This document shows positions 13,550 through 37,185 of a stretch of 64,000 nucleotides of DNA, in pieces. The position numbers and the translations under genes were made by a program. Numbering within the stretch: position 1 is the stretch's first letter; each line of letters starts with the position of its first letter. The notes under the pieces are model-generated. The model ran no database searches, was not told the origin of the DNA, and saw only the letters and a list, made by a program, of their open reading frames with translations. The DNA is from Favolaschia claudopus (lineage: Eukaryota > Basidiomycota > Agaricomycetes > Agaricales > Mycenaceae). The stretch covers positions 310,001-374,000 of the forward strand of contig JAWWNJ010000015.1 of the NCBI GenBank assembly GCA_037176885.1, written 5' to 3'.

Positions 13550-16500
13550 GTGAAACGGTGCGTGTAGGTGTAGGCGTGAAATATACCGAAATATAAATCA
13601 CAAAATCTAATCCAATACGACGTGTGTGTGTGTGTGTGTTCGGGGTGGCGGGAGCACGTATCGTCCCTCAGAATACTTGTGCAAGCTTCAATCAATCAAG
13701 GTCGCTACGTTTGAGCGGGACGAACTACTAGATTGTCTAGCGAGAACGTAGCGGGCAAAACGATTCGCAGCGGGAGAAGCGAAGAGTCACTCTTTCTGAG
13801 ACTTCGAAATGAGAAATTCTGAGTCTAGCGGGGAGGGTCTCCGTGCCAATAGAAAAGTGTCGCCCGGTAGTGGATCGTCAACCGGCAAGAAGCTTTCTGG
13901 ATGACAACCGGCGGGCAGAAGGCGCGGCTCAGCGGGACGGGGTTCTTATACGACTGGCGCGGCTCTGGCGAGGAGCGGGGCTCTTATGTCGATGGCGCGG
14001 ACACTAACAGTGACCCGGGCAGTTACACCACTACGCGGCGGCGAGCTCGAACGGGGGTCTTGGTTATACCGCGGAACGGCTGGCACACGGGGCGTCGAGG
14101 GCGCGGAATCAAGCACGAACGGGGGTCTTGGTTATACCGCGGAACGGCGAGAAACGGGGCTTCGTATTTCAGGAGGGCTCGGGCTCAAAGGCTGGCGGGG
14201 CTCTCAAAGTTCTGGCGGCTCGGTATGCCACAAGTCTTTCCGTATCACTCGAGTCTCTCTCAGATATCAAGTCTAGTCTCTTTCAAAGTTCAATTCAAAT
14301 TCTAGAGTCCGCTACAAACTGCCCTTGTCTACGGGTAGGTAATTGACTGAGTAATCAAAAGCACAGCGGGAGATTAAATACATCCAACGGGAGCAGAAAC
14401 AACCAAATAAAATCATGATGAGAGAGTGTCCAAGAGTGATGCCGCGCCCGCTGGGAACCAATGGTATATTCAGGATTGCGAGTCGTGAGTGAAAAGACTG
14501 CCTCCCGGAGAAAGTCCATGCGGGCGGGTGGGTATCGCGCCTTATTGCAGTGCAATGGCGTGCTGGTTGCCATGTCTCCAAGGAGAGACACGAAATATCT
14601 TCTTCATAATGGCTGCTTGCCGCTGGTCGAGCAAAGGTCAAGGTCACCCCCCGCCGTCCGCACTGGTGGCGGCTCGAGTGCGGTCAAGTTCTTCTAAGTT
14701 CTTCTGTCATCAGGAAAGAGGCTCCCGCTTGAAGCAGGGCAAGCCGATATAATCCAGAGGTTCGCCACTCGCCGAGAGACTCCCCGATATCAACGGTATT
14801 TGACACCGGCATCGTCGGTTGGTCTCCCCGCTGTAACGCTGACACTTGAATATATCAACTGAAGTGCTAAATATAGCGCAGCAGAGAATCTACCACCAAA
14901 ATATATATATAACACAATCAACCAACACACACAACACTACAACACAAATATCTCCACAAGATACACTCAAATGTCTCTCGAAGAGTTCGTGGGGTTCGAT
15001 CCGAAATCCAGATGTCTCAGTGACGAGGATATAAGTCGACTTGCAAGCAAGAACCTTGCACAAAACACGCTCTCACACACCGTAGATGGAAGTGATTCCG
15101 TCCGCGGACCTTTCCTAAAAATAGGAACTATAAACGGTAGGATACAAGATACCCAACGCAGTTGAATATCAGGGCGAGATTGAAACAGTGGCCACAGACA
15201 GTTTCCGCGGCAGAATGCACAATTCTTATAGCGCCAGTTACGCTATAGACCTGAACCTCCAAATTCCAGGAACCTTTGACACTCCTTTATATAGCACAAG
15301 CCTTTCAGACGAGGACTAATCAGATCTCTTCCGGTTATGCGCCAGCAGTCCCAACGCAATGCTTCAGCAGATGGACAGTTCCACTCTTCCTCAGACTCAG
15401 GGAGATACTAGTTCACTCTCGAGCACACGTATCTTCACAATGAGATAGGCAGTCCGCGGGCAGTAGAGGCAGGCAGTTCCTTACACACTAAGGCCACGAC
15501 AAAGCTACTCGAAAGCAAAGCCTCCGCGGGTGAACACTCTCGAAACGATGCTTAGATTCACACTTGAACTGAACTTCAACACAATTTCTATTAAGACAAA
15601 CGAGTAGACAATATCTTTATATATGCCTCTACGTTGCTGCCTGAGTTCACCAACGCTGTCCAATAGACTGAGCGCGATGTCCTCCAGCTCAACGAGAAAT
15701 ACAGGTCCTTTTATACTAATGCCAAGAAATACATCACATAAATAGTACAGAGTAAGCAATGTCGATCCAATTGAGTAGAGAGATGGTATATTGGTATTTG
15801 GGTGTCCCGGCGGACCTTCGGCAGCCTCTTGGCTTGTCGATCCAACGGTAGAAAGTCAGCAATTATGACTCCCACGGTTGAATCACTGAATTGCGGAAGC
15901 CCGCGGAACGCCATCCTTGGTGATCCCGTCAATCCGTCACTGGCGGCAACCCTTCCGGCGGTGCCATCAACGCCTCTAATAACTCCTAAGACTATTCTTG
16001 GGACATTCCAATTCACTCGCAATATCACAGGCTCGTCTGTTGTCCAATTTATCAAGCCACCAAGTCATCCGCGCTGACTCCAATATAGAAATAGATTTCT
16101 AATGAAGTTGCCGCACTTGTTCGGCTTCAGCATCACACCATCATTACTCCTGTCAAAGACCTCATGTCTTGCCATAATTCTGCCTTCTGATCCCAGCACC
16201 GGCATCTCCTGTATGAGATCCCTTTCCGCTGTTCCAGCCGTCTATTTATAGTCGGCAGCCCGCGGCATCTGTCCTTTGACTGATGTTGACTCTGATAGCC
16301 CCCGCGGCGCCTCCTACATCCTTGTAGACCTTCGTCTAAGTCCGTAGTACACAAGTACTTGACTCTTCGTCACTCTTCTGAGGGTTCTGTTATGGAACAG
16401 ATCCATAGTACTGCAGCAGGCTATTATTATAATGCCTTTCTCCTGTAATGGGTTTTACGGTCAACAGCTCGGAGCTCACTTTGACCCTCCTTAGTGTCAC

Positions 16501-17184
16501 CAACAGAGGTACTGACTTCCTATTGATAGTCGAGTAAGACTATAGTCGTGGCGGGTAGTTGGGTTGTTTAGGGCCGCACTTGACTTAAAATAGCCAGATA
16601 TAACGCGCAAAAATGGCCAGTCGTTACACCGCTAGTGAACCCGAGGCAGCCGATGCTCCCCGGTTGATCCAGTCCACTCGCCGGCCCTAGTCGGGTCCTC
16701 GGCGATAAGCCCGCTGCTCGCGTAGGATCAAGTCTTCCTTGATCTGGCCCTCCTGTGAGGTCTTGTTCGACCCGCCGAAGGTGATGTTCCCGGCGGCATG
16801 TCCCCGCCAGTACTAATGAGTTCCTCTGTCCTTCAGCCTGATTCGTCTATGGTGGTTCGGCGGGTTAGCGCCTAACATCGGGGTTTTGGTAATTCCTCTT
16901 GGTGGCCTCCGGCACCTCGAGGCAACGGTTTCCCGCTACGCTCTTGGCCCAACAGTAGTAGTAGTTGAAGTCAGAGTCCCGTTCCCATGTTTAGGGAGAC
17001 GTCGCTAAGCTCCCGCTACCAGATGATGATGTCCCGCTGGCTTATCGGCCATCCTAAGCAATAAGATACTACCCTCGAGGTAGAGTATATCTTCTGTGAT
17101 CCTAGCCTCACTTCCTCCCGCTGATAGGTACAGAAATCGATAAATTTCTGTGGTTTCACGCGTAGCCGCTGAGCGGCCCTATCA
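13550..17184 (-). repeat. 3' LTR of element B, interrupted by D1
   Basis: Identical to the right LTR except for a few substitutions that I could find by eye (for example near 14,099 and 14,303). It is split at 14,832-16,628 by insertion D1 with a 4-bp CCGC duplication. It contains a (GT)n run near 13,620 and a direct repeat of about 36 bases at 14,046 and 14,116. The frames at 13,901-14,752 recur in the other LTR and are not genes. Confidence 0.92.
14832..16628 (-). mobile_element. D1: 1.8-kb solo-LTR-like insertion in B's 3' LTR
   Basis: Ends TGTAACG...CGTTACA, flanked by CCGC on both sides. It is absent from the other B LTR, so the boundaries are exact. The minus strand has TATAAAAGG near 15,705 and a second TATATAAAGG-type box near 15,290, which sets the LTR direction. 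It holds no convincing ORF. It is related to D2 (24,927-26,763) in the opposite orientation. It has seven CCGCGG sites. Confidence 0.75.
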
Positions 17185-17220
17185 TCTCCCCCTTTCTAGA
17201 TTTCAACTCTCCCGAGTTGA
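17185..17220 (-). promoter_or_regulatory. Polypurine tract and hairpin before B's 3' LTR
   Basis: The minus strand reads AGAAAGGGGGAGA directly before the LTR start TGATAGG, the expected plus-strand primer. Just upstream is an inverted repeat, CAACTC...GAGTTG. A near copy lies at 24,331-24,369. Confidence 0.8.
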
Positions 17221-17889
17221 CGGTGGGTGTACCGCCCGCTGAGCGACTTGTCATCTTTCAGAGGAAGGGGACTTCAAGACAATCTAGTCTTGGAACGATT
17301 TTTGATAAACGCTGGCGGCCCGCCAGCGAGGCCCGACGATCCCGCCAGTTCCCTTCTGTATTCCATTCCAGAATCAGCCCTCAGGCTTTCCCGAAACTCT
17401 CTTTCGACCTATTTTTAGGTCGACCCTGCAAGGCCATTCAATTCGAACCTTATCCTTCGCCGCGGCGCTCGGACTTCGTCAATCGTCATCGGGAATGTAT
17501 TGACTTCCCGATTGGGAAGTACATCAGCTTCTTTTCATTATATCCAAACTTTATCGTTGTAGGTCCCTGCTTCCACCTTTCTAGGCCCGCAGCCGCAGTC
17601 TGACTCAGATTTTTCGCTCTCACGGCGGCGCTTCTTCATTCAAATGTTTTTCTCTGAGGTTTTCAGAGAATCCCATCAAGAATTTCGAGCTCCGCCGCTC
17701 GACGTATAAAAGAGCCTGAGGTTTCGTCGAGGTTCCCATCAAATTTTCCCTCTTTTCATCCTGTTTTCGTCTATCTTTAGCTTCTTCTACCCCAAGCCCG
17801 CCACCGCGTTAACGTGAGTCGTTCCCGCCTGGTATCTTTGGGACTTTTTACTGAGTTTAGGACTCATGTTGGATGTTTCACACCCAGCA
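17221..17889 (+). other. Leader and promoter region of cargo gene G1
   Basis: About 670 bases of non-coding sequence. CGTATAAAAGAGCC at about 17,701 contains a TATAAAAG box. It is followed by a C/T-rich stretch (17,740-17,800) and a possible 5' UTR intron beginning GTGAGTCG at 17,813. This fits a separate plus-strand promoter for the cargo. Confidence 0.5.
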
Positions 17890-20800
17890 TGACCTCCGCT
17901 GCCGCTCCTGCTCCCGCCAAGGACTGGTATCGAGCCCTTCGTCGCCTTTCGAGTGACGAGTTCCGCGACCTCAAGCAAATCGCCATCCCCGCTGTGGCCA
18001 AGCAGCAAGACTCCGCCAACCTCTTCAGGTTCCTTAACAACATTCGAGCTATTATGGTAGGTCCCGCCGCTGCTAGTCGGCGGCGGCTCCCTCTGATCGT
18101 CCATTTTCTTTAGACAGACTCGCGGGCCAGGCTGGGCGATCTTCGCGGCTGCCCGCCGTGGCTGATCGCCCTTCACTACTCCCTTCGGACCGCTGTGAAC
18201 CTCGCCGACCCGGGCCAAGACTACCCTCAGCTCAGGGAGATGTTGTTGACAAAATCGGAGATTCTCCACTTCGGCTGCCCGGTGAGTAACTTTTCTCTCT
18301 TTCTTTCTAGTTCTTGGCTAACCCGTCTGCTCGTCGCTGTAGGACACATATTTGCGTGACTTTACAGACGTCAACGCGTCGAAACAGCTGCCGGCAGAAC
18401 CTTCAGTCGCCCCGCCCGTCACAGCGCCTCCTCAAACGCCCAAGGTCACCCCCGTGTCGGACCACCCAGCGGGCTCTAAGTCGCGCAAGTCAGGCCCCGC
18501 TAAGGTAACTTCGTCTTCTTCGCTGCAGGGGCCTGCTCAATCCCGCTCCTCCGCGTCCGCGAAGTCCACCAGGGTAGGCCGATATGCTGGCTCCTCCACC
18601 GCGCTCGACTGACTTAGTCCGAATTTTTCAGGGCGGCGGTGGGCCTCGTTACGGTCCCGTCCCCAAGGAAGTCCCTCAGGTCTTCATCATCAAGTCGACG
18701 CCCGCTGGCGGCTCAAAGCGCAAGGAACCCGATACTCCCACCGAGGACGAGGAGCCTAAAGGCAAAAAGACCAAGGTGAGTCCCGCTACCAGAAGACTCC
18801 TTCGTTTCCTGACTTAGGCCTTTTTGTAGCCCGCCAAGGCACCGGCATCGGAAGGTATCTTCAACATCTATCAGTTCCTCTGCGATCATAACAAACGCGC
18901 CCGCTCAGGGAACGACTCCGACATCGAGGTGATCGAGACCAAAGACGCTCCCAAAGCCCCGGTAGCCGGCCCTAGCCGCAAAGGTACTGCCTCCTTCTTT
19001 CTGTTTCCTTCAAATTTCTTATCTTCTGGTAACAGTCGTTCCCGCTACTAAAGTCGCCAAGGCCGGCGCGAAGACGCCGCTCCCCGTCTCTGCTTCTGTG
19101 GCGGTCAAGGATGTGTCGGAGGCCATGCTTATCCAGAGCATCCTTCGTTCAGAAGACATCATCCCCGTTACGACTAAGATAAGTCCTCTTTTTAAAACTT
19201 CTTGCGGCGGCCGCTCTGACTCCCTGGCTTACAGCGGGATCGCGCACAGCCAAACTCTGAACGCTCGCTCGCACCCCCGCCGCAACCGTTCTTCAGAAGA
19301 AGTCGGTTTCCTTCAGCCCAACAAGGGCGTACTTCACCAATTCCTGAGTATGCTCCCGGCGACGGTCCGCGAGGACCTCCCTTTCGACGAGGAGACCAAC
19401 CGCTACATCATCTCGGACCATTGGATCCGCCAGATGCTGAACTTGTCGCGCCCGCAGGTAAGTCCTTCCTAGCCGCTCCTTGATTTACCCAACTCATGAG
19501 TTCCTCAAGGTCGGCCCCCGGTGCACCAACTGCCTTAGTTTCGGCAGTTCGTGTGTCATCGAGGGCACCCCCGCTATGTGTCGCGGTTGCCGCCAGAAGA
19601 AGACCACCAACAGCTGCTCCTTGCTCATGAGTGGTGAGGTCTTGGGCGCTTTAGGTCCCGAAGTCCTGCGCTACGCTGATATGTCCAATGCCGGTGGGTT
19701 TACTCAAATTTCTTGGTTCCCGCCGGACTTCTTTCTAATTTTCATTCAACTTCTAGGCTGGAAGGAGAAAATGGAGAACACTATGGCCCTCGGTCGTGTC
19801 GCCGCCGACGCTAACACCGCCGCCGTCCGCGCCAACTCGGAGTACCAGTACGGTCTCCTCCAACTTCTTCTGGTGATCCTCAAGACCCGCCGCTCGCTGA
19901 CTTACGAAGAGTTCCTGGACCGATTCGCCGGGGAGGACGAGGCTGAGTGCGACTTCCTCATGGAAGTCACACTCAAGTTGGCGATGGCTCAATCGCTGAC
20001 CGCCGAGTCCAACCTTCATCGTGGTTGGGTTTGGCATGCCGTCGCCTATGATGACCTTCGCTCCCCGCTGCCAACTCCTTTCAAGTCCGCCTGGGATTTC
20101 TACAAGGCTGTCGACAACCGCGAGCTCGACGACCACTATGGGTTTTTCCTCATCCCCGCTATCGCCAACAAAGAGGGCAAGGCTCAATGGGTCGAAGTCA
20201 AGGTGAGTTTCAACATTCCCAATTCTTTCTATTTCCTAAGTCGCTAATACCCGCCAGGCCGACGACTGCCTCGACGTCCTTTTGGACGACAAGAAGTTGC
20301 CAGCGGGCGTGTCGGACGTCAAACTGCGCAACCGCCTTGCTCGCGAATTTCAGCGGTTCGAGTGAGAAGACAGCCGACGGGCGGCCTCATCCTTTCAAAG
20401 TCCTTCGCGACACCCCCGGGTTTTTGGGCAAGCTCAAGAAGCTCGGCAAGGTGACTGATATCCCCGACGTCGCCGAGCCAAAGCCCGCTCCCGCCAAGAA
20501 GAATTCGAAGGGTCGCAAGGGCAAGAAGGCCCCAACCAGCAAGCCCAACGTCGAGTCCGACGGGGAGTACGAGCCGCCAGCTGAGGCTCCCGCTCCCAAG
20601 ACTCCCACTGCCGCTTCCGACGCCGAGGAGGAGGACGAAGACTCCGAAGAGTCAACCGACCGTAAGTGGCTTTATCATTCATCTTTCTTTCAGTTACTTA
20701 TTTCCTTCTTAGCCGAAGACCGCCTCCCGCAAGCGCCTGTAATGTCGGCCAAGCGGGCGGGCAAGCAGCGTGCCGCGACTCCAGTTGACAGCGCGGGGGA

Positions 20801-20897
20801 GGAGGAGGCGGACGTGGATGCGGCCGGCAAGGACGACGACATGGCCCCTAGCACCTGGGGAATGCCGCCGCCCCCGTTCGATGGCGCGGCGTCTTGA
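17890..20897 (+). CDS. Cargo gene G1: large nuclear-type protein with C6 zinc-cluster motif
   Basis: Exons that keep phase are 17890-18056, 18114-18281, 18343-18504, 18529-18573, 18632-18775, 18830-18983, 19036-19457, 19510-19693, 19757-20202 and from 20258; a last intron lies near 20,673-20,712. The N-terminus is helical and the middle is Pro/Ala/Lys-rich. Exon 19510-19693 carries six cysteines spaced C-X2-C-X6-C-X8-C-X2-C-X8-C, the spacing of GAL4-type Zn2Cys6 clusters, though the usual basic residues are mostly missing. A helical domain follows (YGLLQLLLVILKTRRS), then a Lys/Ala-rich and acidic tail. At about 20,364 exon 10 meets TGA after FQRFE, while a frame one base away continues sensibly (HPFKVLRDTPGF) to the stop at 20,897. 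This is either a frameshift or an unseen splice. Its role is unknown; DNA binding is an inference. Confidence 0.65.
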
Positions 20898-21700
20898 AGG
20901 TATGTCCTTACCTGATCTCCCTTGCCCACCTTGCTGACTACTTCACAGCTTGTCGGCGGCCACTGTCTTCGGCCGGGCGGGGAGGCAAGTCTCCCCCTTT
21001 CTTAATTCTTTCTCTTTCAATATTCTGACCAAGTCTTTCGCCCGCCAGGAGATTGTTTCATCGCGGGGGCCGAGCGGCCCCCAAATATTTTATCGCTATA
21101 CGTATCGCAGGGTCCGGGTCCCTTCAACCCGATTTGCAAACAGTCCGCGTGGTGCAGCCTGGCAGAACATTCGGTTCTGCCCGCTGCACCTTCCAAAATA
21201 AAAATTTTCTTTCCATAGTAGTACAGCAGCTTGTGCCGGCCAAAGAGCCGATGAATAAAAGCTTTTGAATACCGCTGCTCCCTTTTTTGTGTGAAATCTT
21301 AAGTTCTTTTAAGTTCCTAAGTCAAGTTCCCGCCACGAGCTCCCTTAAGTATTGAGTTAAGAGTTCAAGTTGAGGAATCTCGACCAAGTACCACGCCCGT
21401 CGGCTGAATACGACTTAGAGAGCGGGTTGAACACTGAACGTCAAGTTTTTCAACATGCCGAGCGGCATCAACGCTTATCACCGTGCTCATCAGTTAGCGG
21501 GGATTGCCCGCGGCTTCTCTTCTAGCTGTCAGCGGCTGTCCTCGGACTCCACCGGGTGGCTAGTTCCTCATTTCTCCCGCTGCTCTCGTAACAGCGATAA
21601 CGTAGAGTAGAACTGGCCCGGTGGACCGAGCCGCCTGCTACCGTACTTGTAGTCGATAGGGGTAGATAGCCAATCAAACCATCTTTTTCTTTCCATTGTC
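20898..21700 (+). other. Spacer between G1 and G2
   Basis: Probably the 3' UTR of G1, with an AATAAAAG poly(A)-like signal near 21,254, then about 400 bases with no convincing frame before the G2 start. CCCGC-type motifs continue through it. Confidence 0.45.
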
Positions 21701-22443
21701 ATGCCTCAGCCCGTAGGTGAAGTCTTAATCGACTACCATTTCTTCCCGGTGGCCAGTCAAGACTTTGTGCGCAAGATCTATACTGTGGTAGGCTGTCCTC
21801 AACACATTTCTGCGTCAAGTCAAACCAGCCGCTAGCCGAATCTCGTCTGCACGCCTTGTAGTGACGCCGGCAAAGACTGTGAATTTCTTCACTGGGGCTC
21901 AAAGTGCACTCGGTGCCGGGAGGCGAAGGTCCCCAAATGCTTGTTCGCCGGGGTGGATTGGTTCAAATATACCTATCCGTCTTCAACCTTTCCGACACTT
22001 TTCATCTATCGCAGCGGTAAGTCCTGCCGCTCTTCGAATTCTCATCTTTCTTATTCTATTCAGGCGGCACTTTGTACGACCTTGCATTCCTCGAACTCTG
22101 GTACCACTTGCGCCTCGGCGGCTTAAGCCCCGATATGTTTATAGGCTCGGTGGACGGTGAGCCCGCTGACTTCTTGCGTCGGCGGGAGGAATTTGCTGGC
22201 GACCTTCGTGACTGGGACATTGCTCACGACCTAAACCACGCCGCCCACTCCAGCCGGCGGCTGTATTTCTACAACATCCTGTCTCGAGTTTTACGCGAGT
22301 GGCGCACCCAGGATCGCTCGATCCATGCCCAGTGCGACGTCGACGCAGCTATCTCGCTCCATGATATCAGGCGACGGGACTCTAACGTTCCGACCGTCGT
22401 GCCCTTGGCCCAAGGCACGCGCCGCCAGACCTTCGAGCGGTAA
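21701..22443 (+). CDS. Cargo gene G2: small C6 zinc-cluster-like protein
   Basis: Exons 21701-21787, 21836-22016 and 22064-22443, with introns of 48 and 47 nt. The 215-residue product starts MPQPVGEVLIDYHFF. Exon 2 opens with PNLVCTPC and holds six cysteines spaced C-X2-C-X6-C-X8-C-X2-C-X7-C. Exon 3 is Trp/Arg-rich and helical (FLELWYHLRLGG; DWDIAHDLNHAAHSSRRLYF). The intron before the cluster is phase 0 and the one after is phase 1, as in G1, G3 and G4, which shows common descent. Likely nuclear and perhaps DNA-binding by the cysteine spacing; the cluster lacks the RKxK core of typical GAL4 proteins. Confidence 0.7.
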
Positions 22444-22615: not shown

Positions 22616-23287
22616 ATGCCCGCCTTTTCTTTGGCAGCGACTTTTTACTCAGAACGCTTTAGGAGCTTCACCGGCCCCTCAGAGTACCAGCTCGTACTTC
22701 AAGCTCAGTTTGTGGGTTTTTCGTTCTTTCTCAGTGTTCCCCCGCTGACGGGTGCCTCTTCTTAGCCGGAGTATGAATGCCAGTGCTGCCTCAAGAACTA
22801 CCGCCACTGCATCTGGATTCAGTGGGGTGAAGCCTGCCTCAGCTGCATGTTCATAGGTCGCGCCGCCTTGTGCTGCTACACTAAGAAGTCCGTCTGGCAG
22901 GCCGAGAACAGCCGTCGTCGCGACACTCTTCTAGCCTCTCGGCCAGGTAAGTCTGCTTTCTATCTTTCTACCTCTCAGCGGGGGTCTTAGTGAATTTTAG
23001 TTCCCTCCGCCGGGCGGATCGCTCAGTTTGACTGGTACGCCAGGGCTGCCGGCGCCCGACTCGACGAGAAGAGGTACATTGACGTGTGTACTTGCACCAT
23101 CCTCGCCGCCAGGTCCATGCTCGGCACCCTTGGGTTTGGCCAGCTACGCTTCTTGTACGGACTGTGGTTTGACGCGAAGGGGGCGGGCGTACGAAAGGAA
23201 ATTGTAGATCTCCTCCGGGATAGGTTAGATGCTGTAGCCCTCCAGTCCGGCGCAAGGCTCCCGCCCGTTATGTTCATCGGGCCGTAA
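22616..23287 (+). CDS. Cargo gene G3: small C6 zinc-cluster-like protein
   Basis: Exons 22616-22710, 22766-22946 and 23001-23287, with introns of 55 and 54 nt (donors GTGGGT and GTAAGT). It starts MPAFSLAATFYSERF. Exon 2 opens PEYECQCC and has cysteines at C-X2-C-X6-C-X8-C-X2-C-X8-C, exactly the GAL4-type spacing. Exon 3 holds a helical domain (FDWYARAAGARLDEKRYIDV). The layout and intron phases match G2 and G4. The three genes lie head to tail within 2.5 kb. Function is inferred only from the cysteine pattern. Confidence 0.7.
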
Positions 23288-24199: not shown

Positions 24200-24330
24200 A
24201 TACAGGCACATGTACTTTCGGATAGTTCGTTCCGATAATACACGCTCCCGCCCCATGTGAGGCCTTGGAAACATTTATTTCTTGGTAAAGATGTGCCCGC
24301 TGCCCTCAAATGACGTGCTAGGTGACCCAC

Positions 24331-24369
24331 CTCTCCCCCTTTCAGAAATCTCAACTGTCCCCAGTTGAT
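24331..24369 (-). promoter_or_regulatory. Internal copy of the PPT-hairpin
   Basis: The minus strand reads TGAAAGGGGGAGA preceded by TCAACT...AGTTGA, matching the PPT and hairpin at 17,185-17,220 in about 30 of 36 positions. The stem is kept although its bases differ. It could be a second plus-strand primer, or mark an older 3' end before genes G1-G4 were added. Confidence 0.5.
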
Positions 24370-27923: not shown

Positions 27924-30900
27924 TCATTTCCGCGCAGCGGCTTTCGTAGCAGAACGAGTCTTTCGTTTGAAAGGCAGCGGCTCATCCGTGTCAGGTTCCT
28001 CTTCCTCTTCTTCTTCCTCGGGCAAGGCCTCCTGCAGAGCCGGCTCTTCGTCAGCCGTCCCGCTGGGGGTTAACCTTACATTCCCGAATTGGAAGTCATC
28101 TCCAGAATAACCGTCTTCCTCCTGGACCATCTTTTCTAACGTCTCGGCCGAGAGGTCAATTAAGTCGTGAATGTCAGCGGGCAGCTTGATAGAGCGCCGC
28201 TGCTCGAAGGGGACTACCCTGAACTGAGCAATCTTTGATTGAAAGACAGAGCCGTCCATCTCCGCTACGATATAACTTCCACCTTTCGTACGCCGGATGA
28301 TAATTACTGGTCCCAGGTATCTGGCGGCCATCTTCGTATTCAGCGATTTCTCAACGGTCGTATTCCTGATGAGCACCAAGTCTCCCGGCTCGAAATGGTA
28401 ATCTTCGATAGTATGTTTATGTGCTATCTCATACCGGCGCAAATTCGCTCGTTTCTCGTCGGTGACCCGCTCCCTCATCTGCTCGACGTGAGTGGCGTGC
28501 TTAGCCAGAGCCTGGGCTCGATAGCCGATTAACTCAGCGGTCGTTAGAGTCCTGCCGGGTAGATGCACTAGCCAAGTCGCTTCTTCTATATCCAGCGGGA
28601 GGATTGGATGTGCGCCCGTTACCATAAAGTAGGGTGAACAACCCGTTCCTCGTCGAATAGTGACCCGGTCAGCCCACAACATCTGCGGGAAGAACCAGTA
28701 CCACTTGCTGGGATTCCCGCCAGTGGCTTTCCATAAGGATTGCCTCATCGAGAAGTGCCCATTTTCGACTTTCCCGTTGGCTTGAGAATTATACGGCGAA
28801 ACTCTGATATTTCTTATGCCGTATTTAGACTCAAGGTAGGCTACGGCCGCTAGGAAGGCCGGCGCATTATCTGTCACCAGTTCCTCCGGGCAACCCCACC
28901 TACAAATCACATCTTCAAGTAAGAACAAGGCCAGCGTTCTGGCATTCTCGTTCTTTATCGGCCGCGCTTCTATGTAGCTGCTGAGAGAGCAGCGGGCGTC
29001 GACAATTTTATTGAAGCCGTTGGAAGGAGTACCAACGACCATCACGTCGACGTGTACCACTTGGAAGAGCGAAGGTGTATGAGTGACAACGGGCGGGATC
29101 TTTAATAAAGTCCTTTGCCTCAATTGACACAATTCGCAAGTCTTAATGTACCAAGTGACATCCCGCTCCATCTCAGGCCACCAGAAGCGCATTTCTATCA
29201 AGGATTTGGTAGCAAAGACGCCGCGATGCGCTAGGCTATCATGAGCCGCTCGCATCATATACATTCGGTGTTCTTTGTCTACCACCAACTGATGTGCGCT
29301 CCCCGTTGTGGATTTATGATAGAGTTTTCCATCTGCATCCTCGAAGAAGCCGGTGGCGAATCGCAAGAAAGCTTTGTATTCTTTGTTGTTCATGCCATCC
29401 GGGCGAGCCAGGGTGTTTCGCCGCCATTCCTTCATGAGGAGCAGCCGCTCGTCCGCTAGCTTCGCCGCTACAGATCGTTGGTCTTCAGAATACGGTTCCC
29501 GCTTCGTCGGGTCGTATTTCAATTCGAGGTCAGGGATCAGCGGCTCGCCTGCTGGCTTGTCGTCACCCTTTGACTGAGAGAAGACTTCGAAAACATATTC
29601 TCTACTAAGGCGGGTGTAAGCCCATGCCTGTTCGGCGTCGTTTTCGAAGTCAGCGGCTGACCGAGCCTCATCTCCCGCCAATTCAGCTACCATATATCCA
29701 CCTCGGGTGTCAATATCGTGCTTGAAATCCTCGAAATTCTTGAGAGGCGGCCAAGCGCTACTTTCAGGATGAAGACCCGGCGGCTCGTTATTATCGAACT
29801 CGTCTTCTGGATGATCATACTCTGGATCCCCCGGCTGAATACGCCGGCGGGAGAGTCCATCTGGCCCGAAAGTCTTGCCCGGTACATGTTTCAGAGTGAA
29901 ATGAAACATTAAGATTTCCTCGATCCAGCGGTTGATCGTAGCGTTGGGTCCCATTCCCGGGTGATCCAACATGCCTTTGAGGTACTGAGCGTCGGTCTCG
30001 ACGACCAGCTTGCGGCAGCCCAACAGCCAGTATTGCATGTGGTCTAGCGCCCTCTTCAAGCCAAACAATTCCCGCTTGGGCTGAGAATACCTCGACTCCC
30101 GTTCGTTCAAAGGTATGGAGCTGAAGCGGGCATAGTACCGCTTATTTAGGTCCAAAGGATCCCGCTGGTACACATGCACCCCAACTCCAAGGTACGACGT
30201 ATCAACCGCCAGCACCACTTCGGTGTCCCATTCATATCTTATAGGTCTAAGCGCGGGACATTCTCGCAAAGCCTTCTTCAAAACTTTCATGCAGGCGTCT
30301 TGGGCCGGGCCCCACTCGAATATGACTTCCTTCCGGGTGAGCTTCTGGATCGGCTCAGCCTTGACTGTATAGTCTTGAATGAACATCCTCATCACGCCCA
30401 CAGTTCCCAGAAAGGCTTTCACGTCGTGGAAATCCTTCAGCGGGCCCCAACGCTCAATGACGCCGATTCTATCTTCATCCGGGCGCATGCCCTCGTATGA
30501 GCAGACATGGCCGACCACCTTAAAGGTTCCCCGGCAAATCTGCAACTTCTTCCCGCTTACAGTCGCCCCAGAATAGGCTAGCCGGGTAAGTACCCGGTTG
30601 CAGTCTACCAAGTGTAACCACACAAAGACCCTTATCAGCGGGTTCTCTGGGATGGTCTCGTACGTCCCGTCAGGCTTCTCATACCGAGTGAAGCCGCCGG
30701 CGACAGGCACGTCATCTATATACGGCCGGGTAACCGCAGGAATTTCATCTCGCAGGATGTAGGTTACGTCCTCGTGGAAGATCGGCACCGAGTTGGTCCA
30801 ACCCTGCGGCAATCTTACCAATCGAAGCGCCCCAAACGGAGTTTGGAAGGTCGTGTAATCTCGAGATTCCGGGTCAATCAGCCGGTGGTTGTACCCAGAA

Positions 30901-32012
30901 TAAAGATCAAACGTGGACCCACAAGCCCTTCCTGCGAAATGTTCGGCTAGATCCGCAGCGCCGGGAGGCACCCCAGAGTGCGCAATGGTTACCGCGTTCA
31001 GCGGCTCCAACGAATGCACTAACCGAATTGACTTCTTATCACTCTTCAGAACTCCAAAGTACTTTGTGCGGTACGAGCCGTTGGATGGTTCGTAGATATT
31101 GGCGTCGATACTCGCCCTAAGCACCTTGCAGACTTCTTCCAGCTGTCCCGGCGGGATGGGAATATTTCTTTCCACCCAGACCTTATGGTCCGCTTTCACC
31201 GGGAACTTGACTGGCGGGAAGAAATCCGTCCTGAAAGTTCCTCGTTCGCTGTCATCCCATGCTACCGTATTTTCGTGTATAGATAACATGTGATGAACCA
31301 GCTTCATCTCTTCATCGTTTAGGAACCCATCATTATGCAGTTCGTCTACAACCACTTTCCTTTCCGCTGTGTACCTCCCAATGGGGACGAAGTCTGGCGG
31401 GTGAGGGTCTAGCGGGACGAGATTCTGCAACGGATCCCCAATGATATTTCTTTCTATCCTGAACTCGGGAGGGAGCGGCTCGAGGACCGGTTTTACTTTC
31501 AGCGCTACCGGCTTATATTTCTTCGAGAACTCCTCCTTCACCTCGACTTCAGGCGGGTGATCCTCGGGAACGATTTCCTCCATCAATACCACTTTCGTTT
31601 CGTTGTGTTCGAACCCGGGCACCACCCAGTCGGCGTAGTCACAGCACTGACAGCGCTCCCCTGCTGAATGCCGAGACCGCTCCTGTTTGAGCGACTCAAC
31701 ATCGGCACCGGCTGTCATGAACACAGCGGCCGGGTCCTTCAGTTTCTCTCTGACTTTATCCGTTATATTAGCTACTATGGCTACATAGGATTCGCCGACA
31801 TCCTTTCCTTCTGTCAGCTGCTCATTATATTCTTGGAATAGCTGAGCAGCGGGTTTGTCATCGACTTCTGGCATGGCAGCCGCTAGGTAGGCCATTTTCG
31901 TCTCGGCCATCGAAAACCCCTCTTCTCCAGATTTCATCAAAGCGCAAATTCTAGGAACATTATTCTCGTCCAGTTCTATCTGAACCACTAACTCTCCTTG
32001 ATGGTTAATCAA
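27924..32012 (-). CDS. pol: Element B Pol: reverse transcriptase, RNase H, integrase
   Basis: A 1362-codon open frame. The RT (about residues 270-480) shows RLVHSLEPLNAVTI, FDLYSGYNHRLIDPESRD, LPQGWTNSVPIFHED and the catalytic box PYIDDVPVAGG near residue 430. The RNase H (about 600-720) shows AVDTSYLG, KRELFGLKRALD, VVETDAQ and GPDGLSRR. The integrase has the HHCC finger (HDSLAHRG ... CELCQL) and the D,D-35-E residues in VVHVDVMVVG, VTDNAPAF and KVENGHFS, then a GPY/F-like LGPVIIIRRTKGGSYIV. No chromodomain is seen. The frame opens with TTG, not ATG, and overlaps the protease frame, with a -1 slippery heptamer at 32,027-32,033; it is likely made as a fusion by frameshifting. All catalytic residues are present, so it may be active. 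Confidence 0.93.
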   Translation of the reverse strand: MINHQGELVVQIELDENNVPRICALMKSGEEGFSMAETKMAYLAAAMPEVDDKPAAQLFQEYNEQLTEGKDVGESYVAIVANITDKVREKLKDPAAVFMTAGADVESLKQERSRHSAGERCQCCDYADWVVPGFEHNETKVVLMEEIVPEDHPPEVEVKEEFSKKYKPVALKVKPVLEPLPPEFRIERNIIGDPLQNLVPLDPHPPDFVPIGRYTAERKVVVDELHNDGFLNDEEMKLVHHMLSIHENTVAWDDSERGTFRTDFFPPVKFPVKADHKVWVERNIPIPPGQLEEVCKVLRASIDANIYEPSNGSYRTKYFGVLKSDKKSIRLVHSLEPLNAVTIAHSGVPPGAADLAEHFAGRACGSTFDLYSGYNHRLIDPESRDYTTFQTPFGALRLVRLPQGWTNSVPIFHEDVTYILRDEIPAVTRPYIDDVPVAGGFTRYEKPDGTYETIPENPLIRVFVWLHLVDCNRVLTRLAYSGATVSGKKLQICRGTFKVVGHVCSYEGMRPDEDRIGVIERWGPLKDFHDVKAFLGTVGVMRMFIQDYTVKAEPIQKLTRKEVIFEWGPAQDACMKVLKKALRECPALRPIRYEWDTEVVLAVDTSYLGVGVHVYQRDPLDLNKRYYARFSSIPLNERESRYSQPKRELFGLKRALDHMQYWLLGCRKLVVETDAQYLKGMLDHPGMGPNATINRWIEEILMFHFTLKHVPGKTFGPDGLSRRRIQPGDPEYDHPEDEFDNNEPPGLHPESSAWPPLKNFEDFKHDIDTRGGYMVAELAGDEARSAADFENDAEQAWAYTRLSREYVFEVFSQSKGDDKPAGEPLIPDLELKYDPTKREPYSEDQRSVAAKLADERLLLMKEWRRNTLARPDGMNNKEYKAFLRFATGFFEDADGKLYHKSTTGSAHQLVVDKEHRMYMMRAAHDSLAHRGVFATKSLIEMRFWWPEMERDVTWYIKTCELCQLRQRTLLKIPPVVTHTPSLFQVVHVDVMVVGTPSNGFNKIVDARCSLSSYIEARPIKNENARTLALFLLEDVICRWGCPEELVTDNAPAFLAAVAYLESKYGIRNIRVSPYNSQANGKVENGHFSMRQSLWKATGGNPSKWYWFFPQMLWADRVTIRRGTGCSPYFMVTGAHPILPLDIEEATWLVHLPGRTLTTAELIGYRAQALAKHATHVEQMRERVTDEKRANLRRYEIAHKHTIEDYHFEPGDLVLIRNTTVEKSLNTKMAARYLGPVIIIRRTKGGSYIVAEMDGSVFQSKIAQFRVVPFEQRRSIKLPADIHDLIDLSAETLEKMVQEEDGYSGDDFQFGNVRLTPSGTADEEPALQEALPEEEEEEEEPDTDEPLPFKRKTRSATKAAARK

Positions 32013-33172
32013 CTCCTCGAATTCTGAAAATTTTGTTCCTCTTCGCCGCTCGCCGGTGCAGCCGGTGGCGCATCATTTTGAACGCGCCGTACCTGCCGCC
32101 GCTGACCTCTAGGGAAGGTAGGGACGACCACCCGCTTCGAAGTGGAGGGGTCGGTCAGAGTCAGGAACTGGTTCCCGTCAGAAGTATTTTTGATACCGCT
32201 GGCGGTCAGAATTTCGAAGGGCCGCCCCAGCAGCACTTTGTATGCCGGGTTCCGTATAACATGCACTTGTAGGTACACAGTCATATCGCCAAACCTGAAG
32301 GGGACGTTCCTTGCTAACCCGATTGACTTTTCGGTTTGCCCGTTGGCGCTCATCATGTGGATACAGTTATCCGGGTCCCAACTGACTCCTAGCTCGGTGG
32401 CTACCGACAGGGCCATGGACACGATCTGTGATCCACCATCCAGAATGCATTCGACTTCGGCGGCTCCATGAATGAGCGGGAAGACCACTCTCAGGGCCGC
32501 TGATTCTCCAGCAGAAGCTTCGGAGATCGCGACGAAGATTTCTCTCACCGGCTCACCGTCGGCTACCGACTGCCAATATTGCACTGCCGGGTCGACAGTG
32601 ATGAGAGCTCCCGCTGGCATGAGTCCATCGGCCACAGTTGAGACCTGGACTAACGCTTCGTAAGGGAGGTCCTCCAAGGCGACGCTGGAGGACTCGTCAT
32701 CTTCGTCGGCTTCTTTCTCTGCGTGGCTAATCAATTGCTCGAGGGTGACTCGAACAGCGGGCGAGACTCTCTTCTTCGAGAGCAACGCCTTAGCCTGACG
32801 CAGCAACTTCGGGCTGAGGGCGAACAGCCTCCCCAGCGGGAGCGCTATTTCCAGGCTTCCAAAGATCTCCTTTATCAAGGATTCGACCTCCTCATCTTCC
32901 TGGTCCTCTACTGGCGCCTTCAACTCGTAGTTCTTTTCGTTGGCCGCCGCCTGCGGATTTCCCGCCGGCCGAACTCTAGGTTCGTTGGGCCTTTTGGCTG
33001 GCTTGACCGGGGGAACGTTCCTATACGGAAGTTCCGGCGGCTGAGTGCCATTTTGTTCTTCTGTCTCCTCCCGCTCCCTTTCCTTGGTCTCCACGATCGC
33101 CGGCTGTGCTTCGACAGCGGGCTTTCGTATCGTCCTCGGTTTATAGGGCAACTTCGGCATCACAACTTCCAT
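32009..33172 (-). CDS. pro: Element B protease ORF
   Basis: 387 codons from ATG 33172. The first half is Lys/Pro/Glu-rich. The retropepsin-like domain has VECILDGGSQIVSM near residue 242 and the downstream block AYKVLLGRPFEILTASGI. The catalytic triad reads D-G-G where D-S/T-G is usual; element A has D-T-G at the same place. The loss of the Thr/Ser hydroxyl may alter activity, or it may be a family trait. The frame ends TGA at 32,011-32,009, overlapping pol. Upstream it is open to just beyond the gag stop, so it too may be reached by slippage from gag. Confidence 0.82.
   Translation of the reverse strand: MEVVMPKLPYKPRTIRKPAVEAQPAIVETKEREREETEEQNGTQPPELPYRNVPPVKPAKRPNEPRVRPAGNPQAAANEKNYELKAPVEDQEDEEVESLIKEIFGSLEIALPLGRLFALSPKLLRQAKALLSKKRVSPAVRVTLEQLISHAEKEADEDDESSSVALEDLPYEALVQVSTVADGLMPAGALITVDPAVQYWQSVADGEPVREIFVAISEASAGESAALRVVFPLIHGAAEVECILDGGSQIVSMALSVATELGVSWDPDNCIHMMSANGQTEKSIGLARNVPFRFGDMTVYLQVHVIRNPAYKVLLGRPFEILTASGIKNTSDGNQFLTLTDPSTSKRVVVPTFPRGQRRQVRRVQNDAPPAAPASGEEEQNFQNSRS
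32027..32033 (-). promoter_or_regulatory. Candidate -1 frameshift heptamer A AAT TTT (pro/pol)
   Basis: In the protease frame the minus strand reads CAA AAT TTT CAG. The heptamer A-AAT-TTT fits X-XXY-YYZ, and slipping back one base gives exactly the pol frame (AAA TTT TCA). It lies 16 bases before the protease stop. I did not find an obvious strong downstream hairpin by eye. Confidence 0.55.
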
Positions 33173-33258
33173 TTTCTTTCCTGCGGGCGGGCGTGCTTGT
33201 CGGTTCTCCGGGGGCTTATCCGCAGTGGGTTTCCCCTTGGCCCCCTTCCTCGAACTCT

Positions 33259-34812
33259 CTAAAAATGCTCACCTTCGATGCTGTTCCCCGTTCGGGAAGG
33301 ACCAGCCCCGTTGGAAGAGCGAGAGTTCGCTGAGACAGCCGCCAGCAGAATCGCAACAGCGTTGGCGTCGAATTGCGGCGGGGGAGATTGGCTTTGATGA
33401 GCCACAAGGGGTGGTTGAACACCCCCTGAACCATGCGACTGGAGTTGCGTCACTTGCCGCTGGAGGTTTACTTGCTCAGCTCGCAAGGAAACCAATTCTT
33501 CTTCTCTCGGGTCATAGTAGAATTCCTCGTTCTGGCTGAACGCGGCTTGCGCGGCTTCCAGCTCCTGCTCGTCCATGTCAAGAACGGAGAGCTGAGCGAA
33601 GACAGACTGGTAGTTTTGCGCAGCGGCCGTGGGTTGGGCGGCCGGGCGGTACTCCTCTACCTGCTGCTTCTTGGACTTGTGCCCGTCTTTCGGGATTGGT
33701 ATCCCATCGGGGAAACAGTCTCTGAACCCTACGACCTTCATCTTTCCACTCCCTATGTGGGCTTGCCGAATGAGACACTTATCTCTAAAATGCCCAAACT
33801 TGTCGCAATAAAGACACCCCTGATCCGCCAGGTTCCCTTTGAATTGCACGGTTGGCATTCGCGGGAAAGACTGGGAGTCAGCGGCGCCTGGGACTCTGCC
33901 CGGTAGGGACTTATAGAAGGACTCCAACTCGGCCATCCTCTTCTTGGTCGCGGCGTCAATCTCTTTTAATTGGGAGGTCTGGTTATCCAGCCGCTCCATC
34001 ATAGTGACGACCGACACCTTAATCGTCTCAAGAAGGGACTTGTTAGGGTCCTCTTCTTCTTTCTTTACCGTCACGTTTGGGTGAGGTAGTATGGATCGCC
34101 CGCTCGACGCCTTTCCAGACCCGCTGGCGTTCTTGGACTTGCTCGAGTAACCCCGGTCAGAGGCGCCAAAGAACTCAGAGTTAGCGGTCGAGCGTTTTGC
34201 GATCCTTTTGGCTTCAGTCATGACCTCGGCCAGCGTCCATGTGCGGACCTCTGGCTCGTCAGCATCATCCCCGGCAGCGGGAGGTTTCCGCTCGAGGTTC
34301 TCCAGAATCCGTTCCTTGAACTCAGGACTCAATTTGGAGAAGAACATCGGGAGAGCCTCCCGGTGCGAAATTAATTTCGAATCGAGAAGCTTGTTTGCCT
34401 CGACGTTCATGACGCGCATTAGGCGCATGAGTTCGTCTTCATCGTCCCGGTCGATCCCCTCTTCCGTGAACTTACGAAGCTGCCGGTGCAATTTCTGCAC
34501 AGAGCCCTTCTTTTGGTCGACTACGGACGGGTAATTTTCCAGGATTTCTTTCTTAAAGTCGTCGAACTTCTTAGAATACGAGGCGAATTGCCGCCACTCC
34601 TCGGCGGTTGCCTGAGCAGTATAGCGGCAGACAAACTCGTTCTTCTTATCATCCGGCGTCTCATCTAATTCCATCATACGCTCCACATGGTCCAGGAAAC
34701 GAACAAGTTCCTCCGGCTCTTCCTCTTTGAAGAGCGGGGCGTTCCTGTCCCATGGTTCCGGCGCGCGCTTCTTTCCTCGAACGACAGGGTTGTTGTTGCC
34801 GTCGTCAGCCAT
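33259..34812 (-). CDS. gag: Element B Gag
   Basis: From the first ATG (34812; MADDGNNNPVVRGKKR) the product is 517 residues. The frame is open back to 35,190, but only with TTG and after a stop, so the extension is doubtful. The capsid-like region contains FLDHVERMMELDETPDDKKN and helical blocks to about residue 200. A CCHC knuckle, CLYCDKFGHFRDKC (C-X2-C-X4-H-X4-C), lies near residue 330, followed by a Gln-rich tail and coiled-coil stretch. It forms the particle and binds RNA. The stop is preceded by a T5 run (CAT TTT TAG), where a -1 slip would enter the protease frame. Confidence 0.85.
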   Translation of the reverse strand: MADDGNNNPVVRGKKRAPEPWDRNAPLFKEEEPEELVRFLDHVERMMELDETPDDKKNEFVCRYTAQATAEEWRQFASYSKKFDDFKKEILENYPSVVDQKKGSVQKLHRQLRKFTEEGIDRDDEDELMRLMRVMNVEANKLLDSKLISHREALPMFFSKLSPEFKERILENLERKPPAAGDDADEPEVRTWTLAEVMTEAKRIAKRSTANSEFFGASDRGYSSKSKNASGSGKASSGRSILPHPNVTVKKEEEDPNKSLLETIKVSVVTMMERLDNQTSQLKEIDAATKKRMAELESFYKSLPGRVPGAADSQSFPRMPTVQFKGNLADQGCLYCDKFGHFRDKCLIRQAHIGSGKMKVVGFRDCFPDGIPIPKDGHKSKKQQVEEYRPAAQPTAAAQNYQSVFAQLSVLDMDEQELEAAQAAFSQNEEFYYDPREEELVSLRAEQVNLQRQVTQLQSHGSGGVQPPLVAHQSQSPPPQFDANAVAILLAAVSANSRSSNGAGPSRTGNSIEGEHF

Positions 34813-35332
34813 CGGATTATTTGAAGGGGTTGGTGAAGTGTTGAGTAGTGGTGAAGAGACAGACGAAAGAGTCGTTGACGACTGGGTAGCTGCACCGTCG
34901 GGCGTAACAGGTCTTGTGCCGGGCGGTTGAGTTGAGGTTTGTTGTTCCAGCGGAGCAGAGGGGCTCAACGACTGGGTTGGGCGGGTACGATAAGCGTGAG
35001 CTTGGGTTCGTCCGCGCAGAGAATAGAGTTCTCGGGCAAGAGCAACAGGCGGGCGGGAAGGATCGTCAGTCTCGAGATCGAGAGCAGCGGCAGCGGCACG
35101 TAGGCTAGTGTTGGTCGACCGAGGTTTTGGTGGTGGTGCTCTAGCGGATCGTCCTTCTGAAGCCACGTCTCTTCCGAAACTAAATGGCAAAATCTTCTAT
35201 AGCGGGCCTGGAGCTATCGGCTCAACGGGCGGGTGTATATTCTATTCTCGAGTCAACCGGCGGATGGTTCGTGCTAGTTTAGAGCAGCGTCCACAAGTGA
35301 TTTCTTTCGACTTGACACAAATAATCTGTCAC

Positions 35333-35350
35333 CCCTCGCGGTGGGCTCCA
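35333..35350 (-). promoter_or_regulatory. Primer-binding site of element B
   Basis: The plus strand is CCCTCGCGGTGGGCTCCA, identical to the PBS of element A, two bases from the LTR end. The discriminator-equivalent base before CCA is T, which is typical of tRNA-Cys and some tRNA-Gln; the tRNA itself is not in the window. Confidence 0.88.
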
Positions 35351-35352
35351 GA

Positions 35353-37185
35353 TGAAACGGTGCGTGTAGGTGTAGGCGTGAAATATACCGAAATATAAAT
35401 CACAAAATCTAATCCAATACGACGTGTGTGTGTGTGTGTGTTCGGGGTGGCGGGAGCACGTATCGTCCCTCAGAATACTTGTGCAAGCTTCAATCAATCA
35501 AGGTCGCTACGTTTGAGCGGGACGAACTACTAGATTGTCTAGCGAGAACGTAGCGGGCAAAACGATTCGCAGCGGGAGAAGCGAAGAGTCACTCTTTCTG
35601 AGACTTCGAAATGAGAAATTCTGAGTCTAGCGGGGAGGGTCTCCGTGCCAATAGAAAAGTGTCGCCCGGTAGTGGATCGTCAACCGGCAAGAAGCTTTCT
35701 GGATGACAACCGGCGGGCAGAAGGCGCGGCTCAGCGGGACGGGGTTCTTATACGACTGGCGCGGCTCTGGCGAGGAGCGGGGCTCTTATGTCGATGGCGC
35801 GGACACTAACAGTGACCCGGGCAGTTACACCACTACGCGGCGGCGAGCTCGAACGGGGGTCTTGGTTATACCGCGGAACGGCTGGCACACGGGGCGTCGA
35901 CGGCGCGGAATCAAGCACGAACGGGGGTCTTGGTTATACCGCGGAACGGCGAGAAACGGGGCTTCGTATTTCAGGAGGGCTCGGGCTCAAAGGCTGGCGG
36001 GGCTCTCAAAGTTCTGGCGGCTCGGTATGCCACAAGTCTTTCCGTATCACTCGAGTCTCTCTCAGATATCAAGTCTAGTCTCTTTCAAAGTTCAATTCAA
36101 ATCCTAGAGTCCGCTACAAACTGCCCTTGTCTACGGGTAGGTAATTGACTGAGTAATCAAAAGCACAGCGGGAGATTAAATACATCCAACGGGAGCAGAA
36201 ACAACCAAATAAAATCATGATGAGAGAGTGTCCAAGAGTGATGCCGCGCCCGCTGGGAACCAATGGTATATTCAGGATTGCGAGTCGTGAGTGAAAAGAC
36301 TGCCTCCCGGAGAAAGTCCATGCGGGCGGGTGGGTATCGCGCCTTATTGCAGTGCAATGGCGTGCTGGTTGCCATGTCTCCAAGGAGAGACACGAAATAT
36401 CTTCTTCATAATGGCTGCTTGCCGCTGGTCGAGCAAAGGTCAAGGTCACCCCCCGCCGTCCGCACTGGTGGCGGCTCGAGTGCGGTCAAGTTCTTCTAAG
36501 TTCTTCTGTCATCAGGAAAGAGGCTCCCGCTTGAAGCAGGGCAAGCCGATATAATCCAGAGGTTCGCCACTCGCCGAGAGACTCCCCGATATCAACGGTA
36601 TTTGACACCGGCATCGTCGGTTGGTCTCCCCGCTAGTGAACCCGAGGCAGCCGATGCTCCCCGGTTGATCCAGTCCACTCGCCGGCCCTAGTCGGGTCCT
36701 CGGCGATAAGCCCGCTGCTCGCGTAGGATCAAGTCTTCCTTGATCTGGCCCTCCTGTGAGGTCTTGTTCGACCCGCCGAAGGTGATGTTCCCGGCGGCAT
36801 GTCCCCGCCAGTACTAATGAGTTCCTCTGTCCTTCAGCCTGATTCGTCTATGGTGGTTCGGCGGGTTAGCGCCTAACATCGGGGTTTTGGTAATTCCTCT
36901 TGGTGGCCTCCGGCACCTCGAGGCAACGGTTTCCCGCTACGCTCTTGGCCCAACAGTAGTAGTAGTTGAAGTCAGAGTCCCGTTCCCATGTTTAGGGAGA
37001 CGTCGCTAAGCTCCCGCTACCAGATGATGATGTCCCGCTGGCTTATCGGCCATCCTAAGCAATAAGATACTACCCTCGAGGTAGAGTATATCTTCTGTGA
37101 TCCTAGCCTCACTTCCTCCCGCTGATAGGTACAGAAATCGATAAATTTCTGTGGTTTCACGCGTAGCCGCTGAGCGGCCCTATCA
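35353..37185 (-). repeat. 5' LTR of element B, intact
   Basis: On the minus strand it starts TGATAGGGCCGCTC and ends GCACCGTTTCA. It has no nested insertion. I counted seven AGCGGG, all before 36,170, and eight CCCGCT, all after 36,250, on the plus strand. No gene is present. Confidence 0.92.

Follow-up and report, generated by a model that had tools for sequence, protein, structure and literature searches.

The locus examined here raises the question of how a retrotransposon comes to carry a set of intron-bearing genes on the strand opposite its own, and whether these genes are working parts of the element or host DNA caught up in it. The window analysed comprises 64,000 nt of the forward strand of contig JAWWNJ010000015.1 (positions 310,001–374,000; assembly GCA_037176885.1) from Favolaschia claudopus, a wood-decay mushroom (Basidiomycota; Mycenaceae) whose assembly was accompanied by RNA-seq (PMC10905254). 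The initial annotation had recognized in it a single Ty3-like element of about 20–24 kb, with LTRs, primer-binding site (PBS), polypurine tract (PPT), gag, pro and pol, and had proposed that a cluster of spliced genes lying between pol and the 3' LTR moves together with the element and is of use to it.

The identity of the element was borne out. The 5' LTR (35353–37185, minus strand, 1,833 bp), which occurs in pairs at many loci, and the 3' LTR (13551–17184, minus strand) differ at two positions across the 1,833 bp of the right LTR, start with TGATAG and end with GTTTCA in the element sense, and are flanked by a 4 bp target-site duplication, ACGG (13547–13550 on the left and 37186–37189 on the right). 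An equivalent of the empty site is provided by a paralogous inverted-repeat arm in the window, which aligns through the joined flanks with 82% identity over 897 columns (one alignment). The PBS (35333–35350, minus strand) is the complement of the tRNA-Arg(UCU) 3' terminus and matches the 3' end of the tRNA gene plus CCA, and the PPT AAAGGGGGAGA (17185–17195, minus strand) abuts the 3' LTR. On the same strand, gag (33259–35196; 645 residues from stop to stop) is open in 7/7 copies, while pro (32009–33268), encoding an aspartic protease, and pol (27924–32072), encoding reverse transcriptase, RNase H and integrase, are each open in six of seven. Protease, RNase H and integrase H2C2 domains scored above the Pfam cut-offs, and RVT_1 slightly under its own (27.9 versus 29.6 bits); within pol, RVT_1 (1.7 bits under the cut-off) spans residues 365–522, RNase H 587–721 and integrase H2C2 931–987. 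The TG...CA LTRs, target duplication, PBS and PPT are thus accompanied by the PR-RT-RH-INT order of Ty3/Gypsy elements, with integrase after RNase H, and the LTRs, PBS and pol suffice to account for the element.

The estimated size range also holds, with the refinement that the native element measures 20,003 bp and that the copy in the window reaches 23,635 bp owing to the insertion of two solo LTRs from a different family. One of these, from a second Ty3 family, interrupts the 3' LTR (14833–16628; 1,796 bp); the other (24927–26762; 1,836 bp) lies inverted within an exon of the cargo gene G5 and resembles the first in pieces, at a similarity of about 77%. Both are absent from six other full-length copies.

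Five intron-bearing genes, G1–G5, occupy the plus strand between pol and the 3' LTR, opposite gag-pol, with two to nine introns each. G1 (17889–20897) has ten exons, which encode an N-terminal domain, a linker, a Zn2Cys6-like exon (19510–19693) and a C-terminal part, and it forms an exchanged, highly divergent cassette. G2 (21701–22443; exons 21701–21787, 21836–22016 and 22064–22443; 215 residues), G3 (22616–23287; exons 22616–22711, 22766–22946 and 23001–23287; 187 residues) and G4 (23571–24199; exons 23571–23633, 23682–23856 and 23916–24199; 173 residues) each have three exons, the second being Zn2Cys6-like. G5 (24620–27701) has six exons in other copies and encodes a protein of 310 residues that looks basic and coiled-coil-like by eye. 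The copy in the window has a disrupted G1 frame, and the second solo LTR splits its G5; other copies have both genes open. The spliced frames of G2, G3 and G4 are each open in nine of ten copies, that of G1 in 5/9 and that of G5 in 8/11, and the database protein P0003 is identical over 823/823 residues to the ten-exon reading of G1 in copy L029, an agreement of annotation rather than of expression. These observations confirm the plus-strand cluster of predicted spliced genes. Between the present G1 reading of copy L027 and its database protein there are three gaps and one mismatch, and a possible AT-AG intron in G1 was kept as exon, in line with the database protein.

Each of G1–G4 contains one exon with the cysteine spacing of GAL4-type (Zn2Cys6) domains, whose consensus is CX2CX6CX5-12CX2CX6-9C. 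A scan of the window in all six reading frames finds this spacing four times, one occurrence per gene, and 200 shuffled versions of the cargo's plus strand contain none; across the four exons only the six cysteines are invariant. Upon a Foldseek search of the PDB with a model of the G4 exon, 21/21 matches were Zn2Cys6 DNA-binding domains, each weak on its own, and a sequence search of the PDB with the Zn exons gave eight chance-level rows, among them two Zn2Cys6 proteins (LAC9 and CYP1). None of the cargo genes reached the curated Pfam cut-off for Zn_clus, G4 alone scoring (14.3 versus 21 bits); for this reason, the exons are named Zn2Cys6-like and not classed as members of the family. No common descent could be demonstrated for the third exons of G1–G4 (best pair G3–G4, probability 28%), so we limit the claim of a shared module to the Zn exon and its flanking intron phases.

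The cargo was found in place in all six other full-length copies fetched, against the first refuting outcome named in the initial annotation, full-length copies that lack it. Among the 40 best-scoring of 356 first-look pol candidates it is retained in 39, two of them in part: in 32, hit lists put G2–G4 or G1 where they were expected, and the remaining eight were probed with 1.5 kb each, five matching across the whole probe, two in part and one (C144) having an LTR there instead. A short derivative, C227, retains gag-pro and gave no cargo match; C57, suspected from its LTR spacing to be another, was rejected as such, its coordinates being consistent with an LTR inserted within pol and a G1 located farther outward. 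Six insertions carry six different target duplications and are therefore separate events; this count leaves out C224, with no matching duplication and an unparsed right flank, and C13, represented by one flank. The cargo does, then, travel with the element. Its introns are kept across the aligned copies, which fits the earlier suggestion that antisense orientation preserves them through retrotransposition. Pooled dN/dS values of 0.10–0.27 reveal purifying selection on all five cargo genes, comparable to that on the core genes (gag 0.089, pro 0.063 and pol 0.037; range 0.04–0.09), and lend support to the proposal that the cargo may serve the element.

On balance, we lean towards a reading in which the cluster is inherited with the element, maintained by selection and encodes spliced DNA-binding accessory regulators, with G1 as a type-specific and swapped member. 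Promoters belonging to G1–G5 themselves would drive transcription in the orientation opposite to the genomic RNA, which would therefore retain the introns unspliced and carry them through retrotransposition. Once spliced, the mRNAs of these genes would yield nuclear DNA-binding accessory proteins that regulate the expression or chromatin of the element itself, as activator, repressor or anti-silencing factor, a role that we infer from the sequence. G1, adjoining the 3' U3, would be exchanged between elements as a block, probably through template switching between co-packaged genomes.

A candidate site for such regulators is the palindrome TCAACT-N6-AGTTGA, which lies beside the PPT (17203–17220) and again, upstream of G5, together with a second PPT-like tract (24332–24368 for the two combined; palindrome at 24351–24368). 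Both copies are present in 9/9 fetched element copies whose stretches span the two sites; the stretch of L030 includes the second site, where the palindrome was not found at up to one mismatch. Since the palindrome is duplicated together with the PPT-like tract, it may as well belong to a second, central PPT as be a regulator-binding site.

The exchange of G1 is seen most clearly in one pair of copies, in which silent divergence is 1.27 in G1 versus 0.07–0.32 in G2–G5. G1 types A and B have U3-A in common, as linkage would predict, and no part of G1 is better conserved between the two than the Zn exon; in another type the change reaches into U3. The ends of type-B introns 3 and 5 are odd in the transferred alignment (GT-CG or GT-GG; AG-AG or GG-AG), which makes those boundaries uncertain. 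G1 type matches U3 type in 25 of the 26 typable elements, a count that excludes five secondary partial rows and one from a second match list. A second Ty3 family, with a pol 57.5% identical, has a related antisense cluster with Zn exons, and in both families the gene adjoining the 3' LTR is the divergent, exchanged block. Such a pattern might reflect history only, old subfamilies having been homogenized by recombination except at G1, without selection on its type. Recombination is evident, as R-U5 of the window element (U3-A, G1-A) is 100% identical (rounded) to those of C73 and C188, both U3-C and the former also with a type-C G1, and the sharing of U3 by types A and B is what linkage predicts. 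However, the edges of the A–B divergent block fall near the G1 unit (approximately 17830–20980), with 92–100% identity in most windows of 17079–17680, and the corresponding position is also the divergent one in the second family; we regard this account as possible but doubtful.

Two functional variants appear improbable to a similar degree. The cluster could be a phage-like immunity or self-recognition region, in which the U3-proximal G1 would act on type-specific sites of the element itself and control resident and incoming copies, while a divergent G1 gained by template switching would escape, keeping old G1 lineages circulating in at least two Ty3 families. The antisense genes could instead act on the host, as decoys or regulators blunting genome defence, with G1 diversifying because it is itself targeted by the host. 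Fast turnover of G1 in two families would fit such an arms race, and Zn2Cys6-like proteins could act at host promoters, but most of the divergence that separates types A and B is silent (dS 1.2, dN 0.22), as expected of old constrained lineages and not of fast protein change, and the change extends into U3 in one type.

It is still less probable that a host gene cluster was captured once by an ancestral element and passively amplified with no role. The genes do look like normal intron-containing genes of a fungus, Zn2Cys6-like exons included, and several copies contain broken ones. Against this stand the purifying selection on all five, their near-universal retention among the best pol copies and the related cluster in the second family. 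Protein searches with G4 and with type-C G1 (residues 440–740 scored) returned no relatives elsewhere, a G1 profile search matched only six F. claudopus proteins (7,995 candidates scored), a PDB sequence search gave none for G1, and neither G5 nor two G1 proteins had a match in NCBIfam. The single-copy host source that the initial annotation had named as a refuting outcome was not found in the first three of these searches, which were limited in scope, and one-off transduction of host genes was set aside with it. Host capture is disfavoured by the presence of the cargo in nearly all examined copies, by the selection acting on it and by the related cluster of the second family. That the antisense transcripts matter, and not the proteins, through pairing with genomic RNA and regulation by dsRNA, is very unlikely, since antisense transcription is discussed as a regulator for such elements (PMC7264820) but would leave the conserved spliced frames and their dN/dS values unexplained.

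Under the preferred reading of the cluster as accessory regulators, the element is a large, recent and well preserved case of antisense genes, several of them spliced and with a plausible DNA-binding exon, and it illustrates how introns can persist inside a retrotransposon. Its many nearly identical copies lend themselves to evolutionary tests, and the swapping of one gene against an otherwise constant background amounts to a natural experiment. Should G1 act on U3, the element would be a fungal retrotransposon equipped with swappable transcription factors of its own, and the function of an antisense accessory gene would become directly testable.

HBZ of HTLV-1, an antisense spliced bZIP gene near the 3' LTR, encodes a nuclear regulator; G1 would work alike without being homologous, HBZ being one bZIP gene and the present cluster five genes with Zn2Cys6-like exons. 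The HTLV antisense promoter is mentioned in a review of antisense genes in LTR elements, which have long been known without a known function (PMC7264820). Ogre of plants and Burro of planarians are likewise giant Ty3/Gypsy-like elements (16–30 kb) with extra coding capacity, but the extra domains of Burro are in frame with gag-pol, and the portion of the source consulted mentions no antisense spliced cluster for either (PMC6431247). LTR elements of bdelloid rotifers with a captured ORF3 also have family-specific accessory genes downstream of pol that are swapped between element types; these are enzymes and env-like proteins from spliced messages, for which antisense orientation is not described in the part of the source consulted (PMC5408684). 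Boty of Botrytis cinerea, an LTR element that is likewise fungal, has an antisense ORF at the corresponding position and is set apart by its description among single-aORF schemes, versus five genes here (PMC7264820). The expectation that antisense ORFs are known and multi-gene, multi-intron cargo is rare was right as to the site (PMC7264820), and no such multi-gene spliced cluster was found described in the portions of these sources consulted. Close counterparts are the plant aORF-3R elements, with an antisense ORF between pol and the 3' LTR, namely maize Grande (gene23, which is driven by a promoter of its own and yields a nuclear product), rice RIRE2, Silene Retand and bean PvRetro13 (PMC7264820). 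Place and orientation are the same, and the genes occur in most copies of each; however, the plant elements, as far as this source describes them, carry additional ORFs without Zn2Cys6 exons, whereas the F. claudopus element carries five genes with two to nine introns each, four with a Zn2Cys6-like exon and one swapped between copies (PMC7264820).

The intron-bearing genes G1–G5, which lie on the plus strand between pol and the 3′ LTR of the minus-strand Ty3 element (13551–37185), were found in the same place in all six of the other full-length copies compared (C12, C167, C60, C104, C185 and C13), bearing out the proposal of the initial annotation that this cargo travels with the element. These copies are 95–99% identical to the window in G2–G5 and gag-pol and ~94–96% identical in U3, but only ~80% in the U3 of C13. 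Cargo is also present in five further stretches of other elements (L027–L029, L030 and L031), with ~91% identity over G2–G4 in L030 and L031. Among the best 40 of 356 pol candidates, 32 have G2–G4 or G1 at the expected position; for the remaining eight, a 1.5 kb probe revealed a full match in five, a partial match in two and an LTR instead in one. A short derivative, L040 (G000:C227:173197–180153), combines gag-pro with U3-C-type LTRs and ~1.4 kb of other sequence.

The assembly holding the window (G000:C15:310001–374000) comprises 264.6 Mb in 460 contigs, and first-look searches, in each of which only the best ~40 matches were scored, returned unconfirmed candidates for R-U5 (395), pol (356), G2–G4 (150), type C G1 (184) and type A/B G1 (40). 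In the published F. claudopus genome, which is 265 Mbp in size and was annotated with the JGI pipeline and RNA-seq, 86.8% of BUSCO genes occur in duplicate (PMC10905254); some single insertions may therefore be counted as two copies, one per allele, and the copy numbers may be inflated accordingly. The 4 bp target duplications parsed for six insertions (ACGG, ACGA, CCGG, CCGC, GCGT and ACGC), including that of the window (13547–13550 and 37186–37189), mark six distinct sites. All six are of the form NCGN, which places these integrations at CG steps; CpG accounts for 6.8% of the window dinucleotides. In the window, the element splits one of the two ~0.8–0.9 kb arms of a long inverted repeat; the other arm (10709–11605) can be aligned across the joined flanks (13179–13550 and 37186–37632).

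The anatomy of the element is established with near certainty. The gag, pro and pol reading frames are all open on the minus strand, which identifies the right LTR (35353–37185) as the 5′ LTR. The primer-binding site matches the 3′ end of a tRNA-Arg(UCU) gene plus CCA, the polypurine tract (PPT) directly adjoins the 3′ LTR (13551–17184), and Pfam matches to the aspartic protease, RNase H and integrase H2C2 exceed the cut-off, with RVT_1 slightly below it. Leaving aside an insertion in the left LTR (14833–16628), the two LTRs differ at two positions over 1833 bp, and both contain a tandem repeat (14034–14148 and 35836–35950; 68 bp step, 47 bp units, 89% alike). A second insertion (24927–26762) is piecewise ~77% similar to the first; neither is present in the other full copies compared, and together they explain the extra length of the window copy, which measures 20 003 bp without them. 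A PPT-like tract with the perfect palindrome TCAACT-N6-AGTTGA occurs both beside the 3′ LTR (17185–17220) and upstream of G5 (24332–24368), and this duplicated module may act as a promoter or as a second (central) PPT.

The first insertion is a ~97% match to the LTR of a second Ty3 family that this genome contains, ~18 kb in length, with LTR pairs ~16.25 kb apart and a pol 57.5% identical over 979 columns (L049; G000:C101:215900–225899). This family has its own antisense Zn2Cys6-like cluster (L049, L051 and L052). A block adjoining its 3′ LTR (~401–3400) is 48–82% identical between L049 and L051, compared with 90–92% before and 93–100% after it; ~1.4 kb of the block is missing from L052. Mismatches in its Zn exon region concentrate at codon position 3 (positions 1:2:3, 17:12:84 in L051 and 20:14:69 in L052), and hence the region reads as coding and constrained. 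At its left edge (1–8800; L050) the window also contains an element of a third family, with the same primer-binding motif (at 8786) and a pol 35–44% identical in parts; for this family no Zn2Cys6 motif was found either in the window outside G1–G4 or in the adjacent 10 kb.

Exon chains were drawn by eye on the window and transferred onto the aligned copies. Nine of ten copies have an open frame for each of G2, G3 and G4 (exceptions C60, L027 and C167), eight of 11 for G5 (broken in C167 and L030, cut off by the end of the stretch in L027) and five of nine for G1 (exceptions the window, C167, C104 and L028). The introns retain GT-AG or GC-AG ends and vary in length with the exons still in frame, except for introns 3 and 5 of type B G1, where the transferred boundaries look wrong, and the G3 intron of L027, which was hit by an LTR; here a solo LTR from the element's own family occupies 6032–7864, in the G3 intron–exon region. 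The G1 reading of L029 is identical to a database protein (P0003) over 823/823 residues, and all six database relatives of G1 are from F. claudopus. Pooled dN/dS values from open copies, in which pairs are non-independent, are 0.27 (G1), 0.11 (G2), 0.12 (G3), 0.16 (G4) and 0.10 (G5); those similarly pooled for gag, pro and pol are 0.09, 0.06 and 0.04.

G1 exists in divergent versions. Compared with the window, type A copies are 83–90% and type B copies 70–73% identical, while type C (C13) retains 27–38% protein identity over matched stretches only, and its divergence extends to the U3 half of the LTR (~80% where alignable). The A–B divergent block extends from near 17830 to near 20980; outside it, at 17079–17680, most windows are 91–100% identical in copies of both types. 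For one pair (C185, type B, versus L029, type A), dS amounts to 1.27 in G1 (dN 0.22), 0.32 in G2, 0.09 in G3, 0.13 in G4 and 0.07 in G5. Between types A and B, G1 is most strongly conserved in its Zn exon (90–92%, against 51–72% in its other parts). Among elements from the best 40 of each list, typed by coordinates, type A/B G1 accompanies U3-A in 16 and U3-C in one (C58, with a partial G1), and type C accompanies U3-C in nine and U3-A in none (Fisher p = 3.2 × 10−6), a count that leaves out 21 and 31 places that could not be typed. Since the 3′ U3 and G1 are neighbours, this association could arise by linkage without function.

By established logic, splicing does not take the introns of the cargo genes out of the genomic RNA, to which these genes run antisense. 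Each gene probably has a promoter of its own that drives its transcription; the start of G1 lies 705 bp from the 3′ U3. The Zn2Cys6-like exons suggest sequence-specific DNA binding in the nucleus, and G1 is suggested to be the specificity-bearing regulator by its exchange, which in one type involves U3 as well. Taken together, we infer that own promoters, nuclear DNA binding and G1 specificity are slightly favoured. Among the papers listed by searches of the open-licence PMC library, both for such cargo in fungal LTR elements and for elements described from Mycena or Favolaschia, none reports a multi-gene spliced antisense cluster, as judged by title and abstract start. Of comparable genes, gene23 of Grande has the closest reported role; it encodes a nuclear protein and has its own promoter (PMC7264820).
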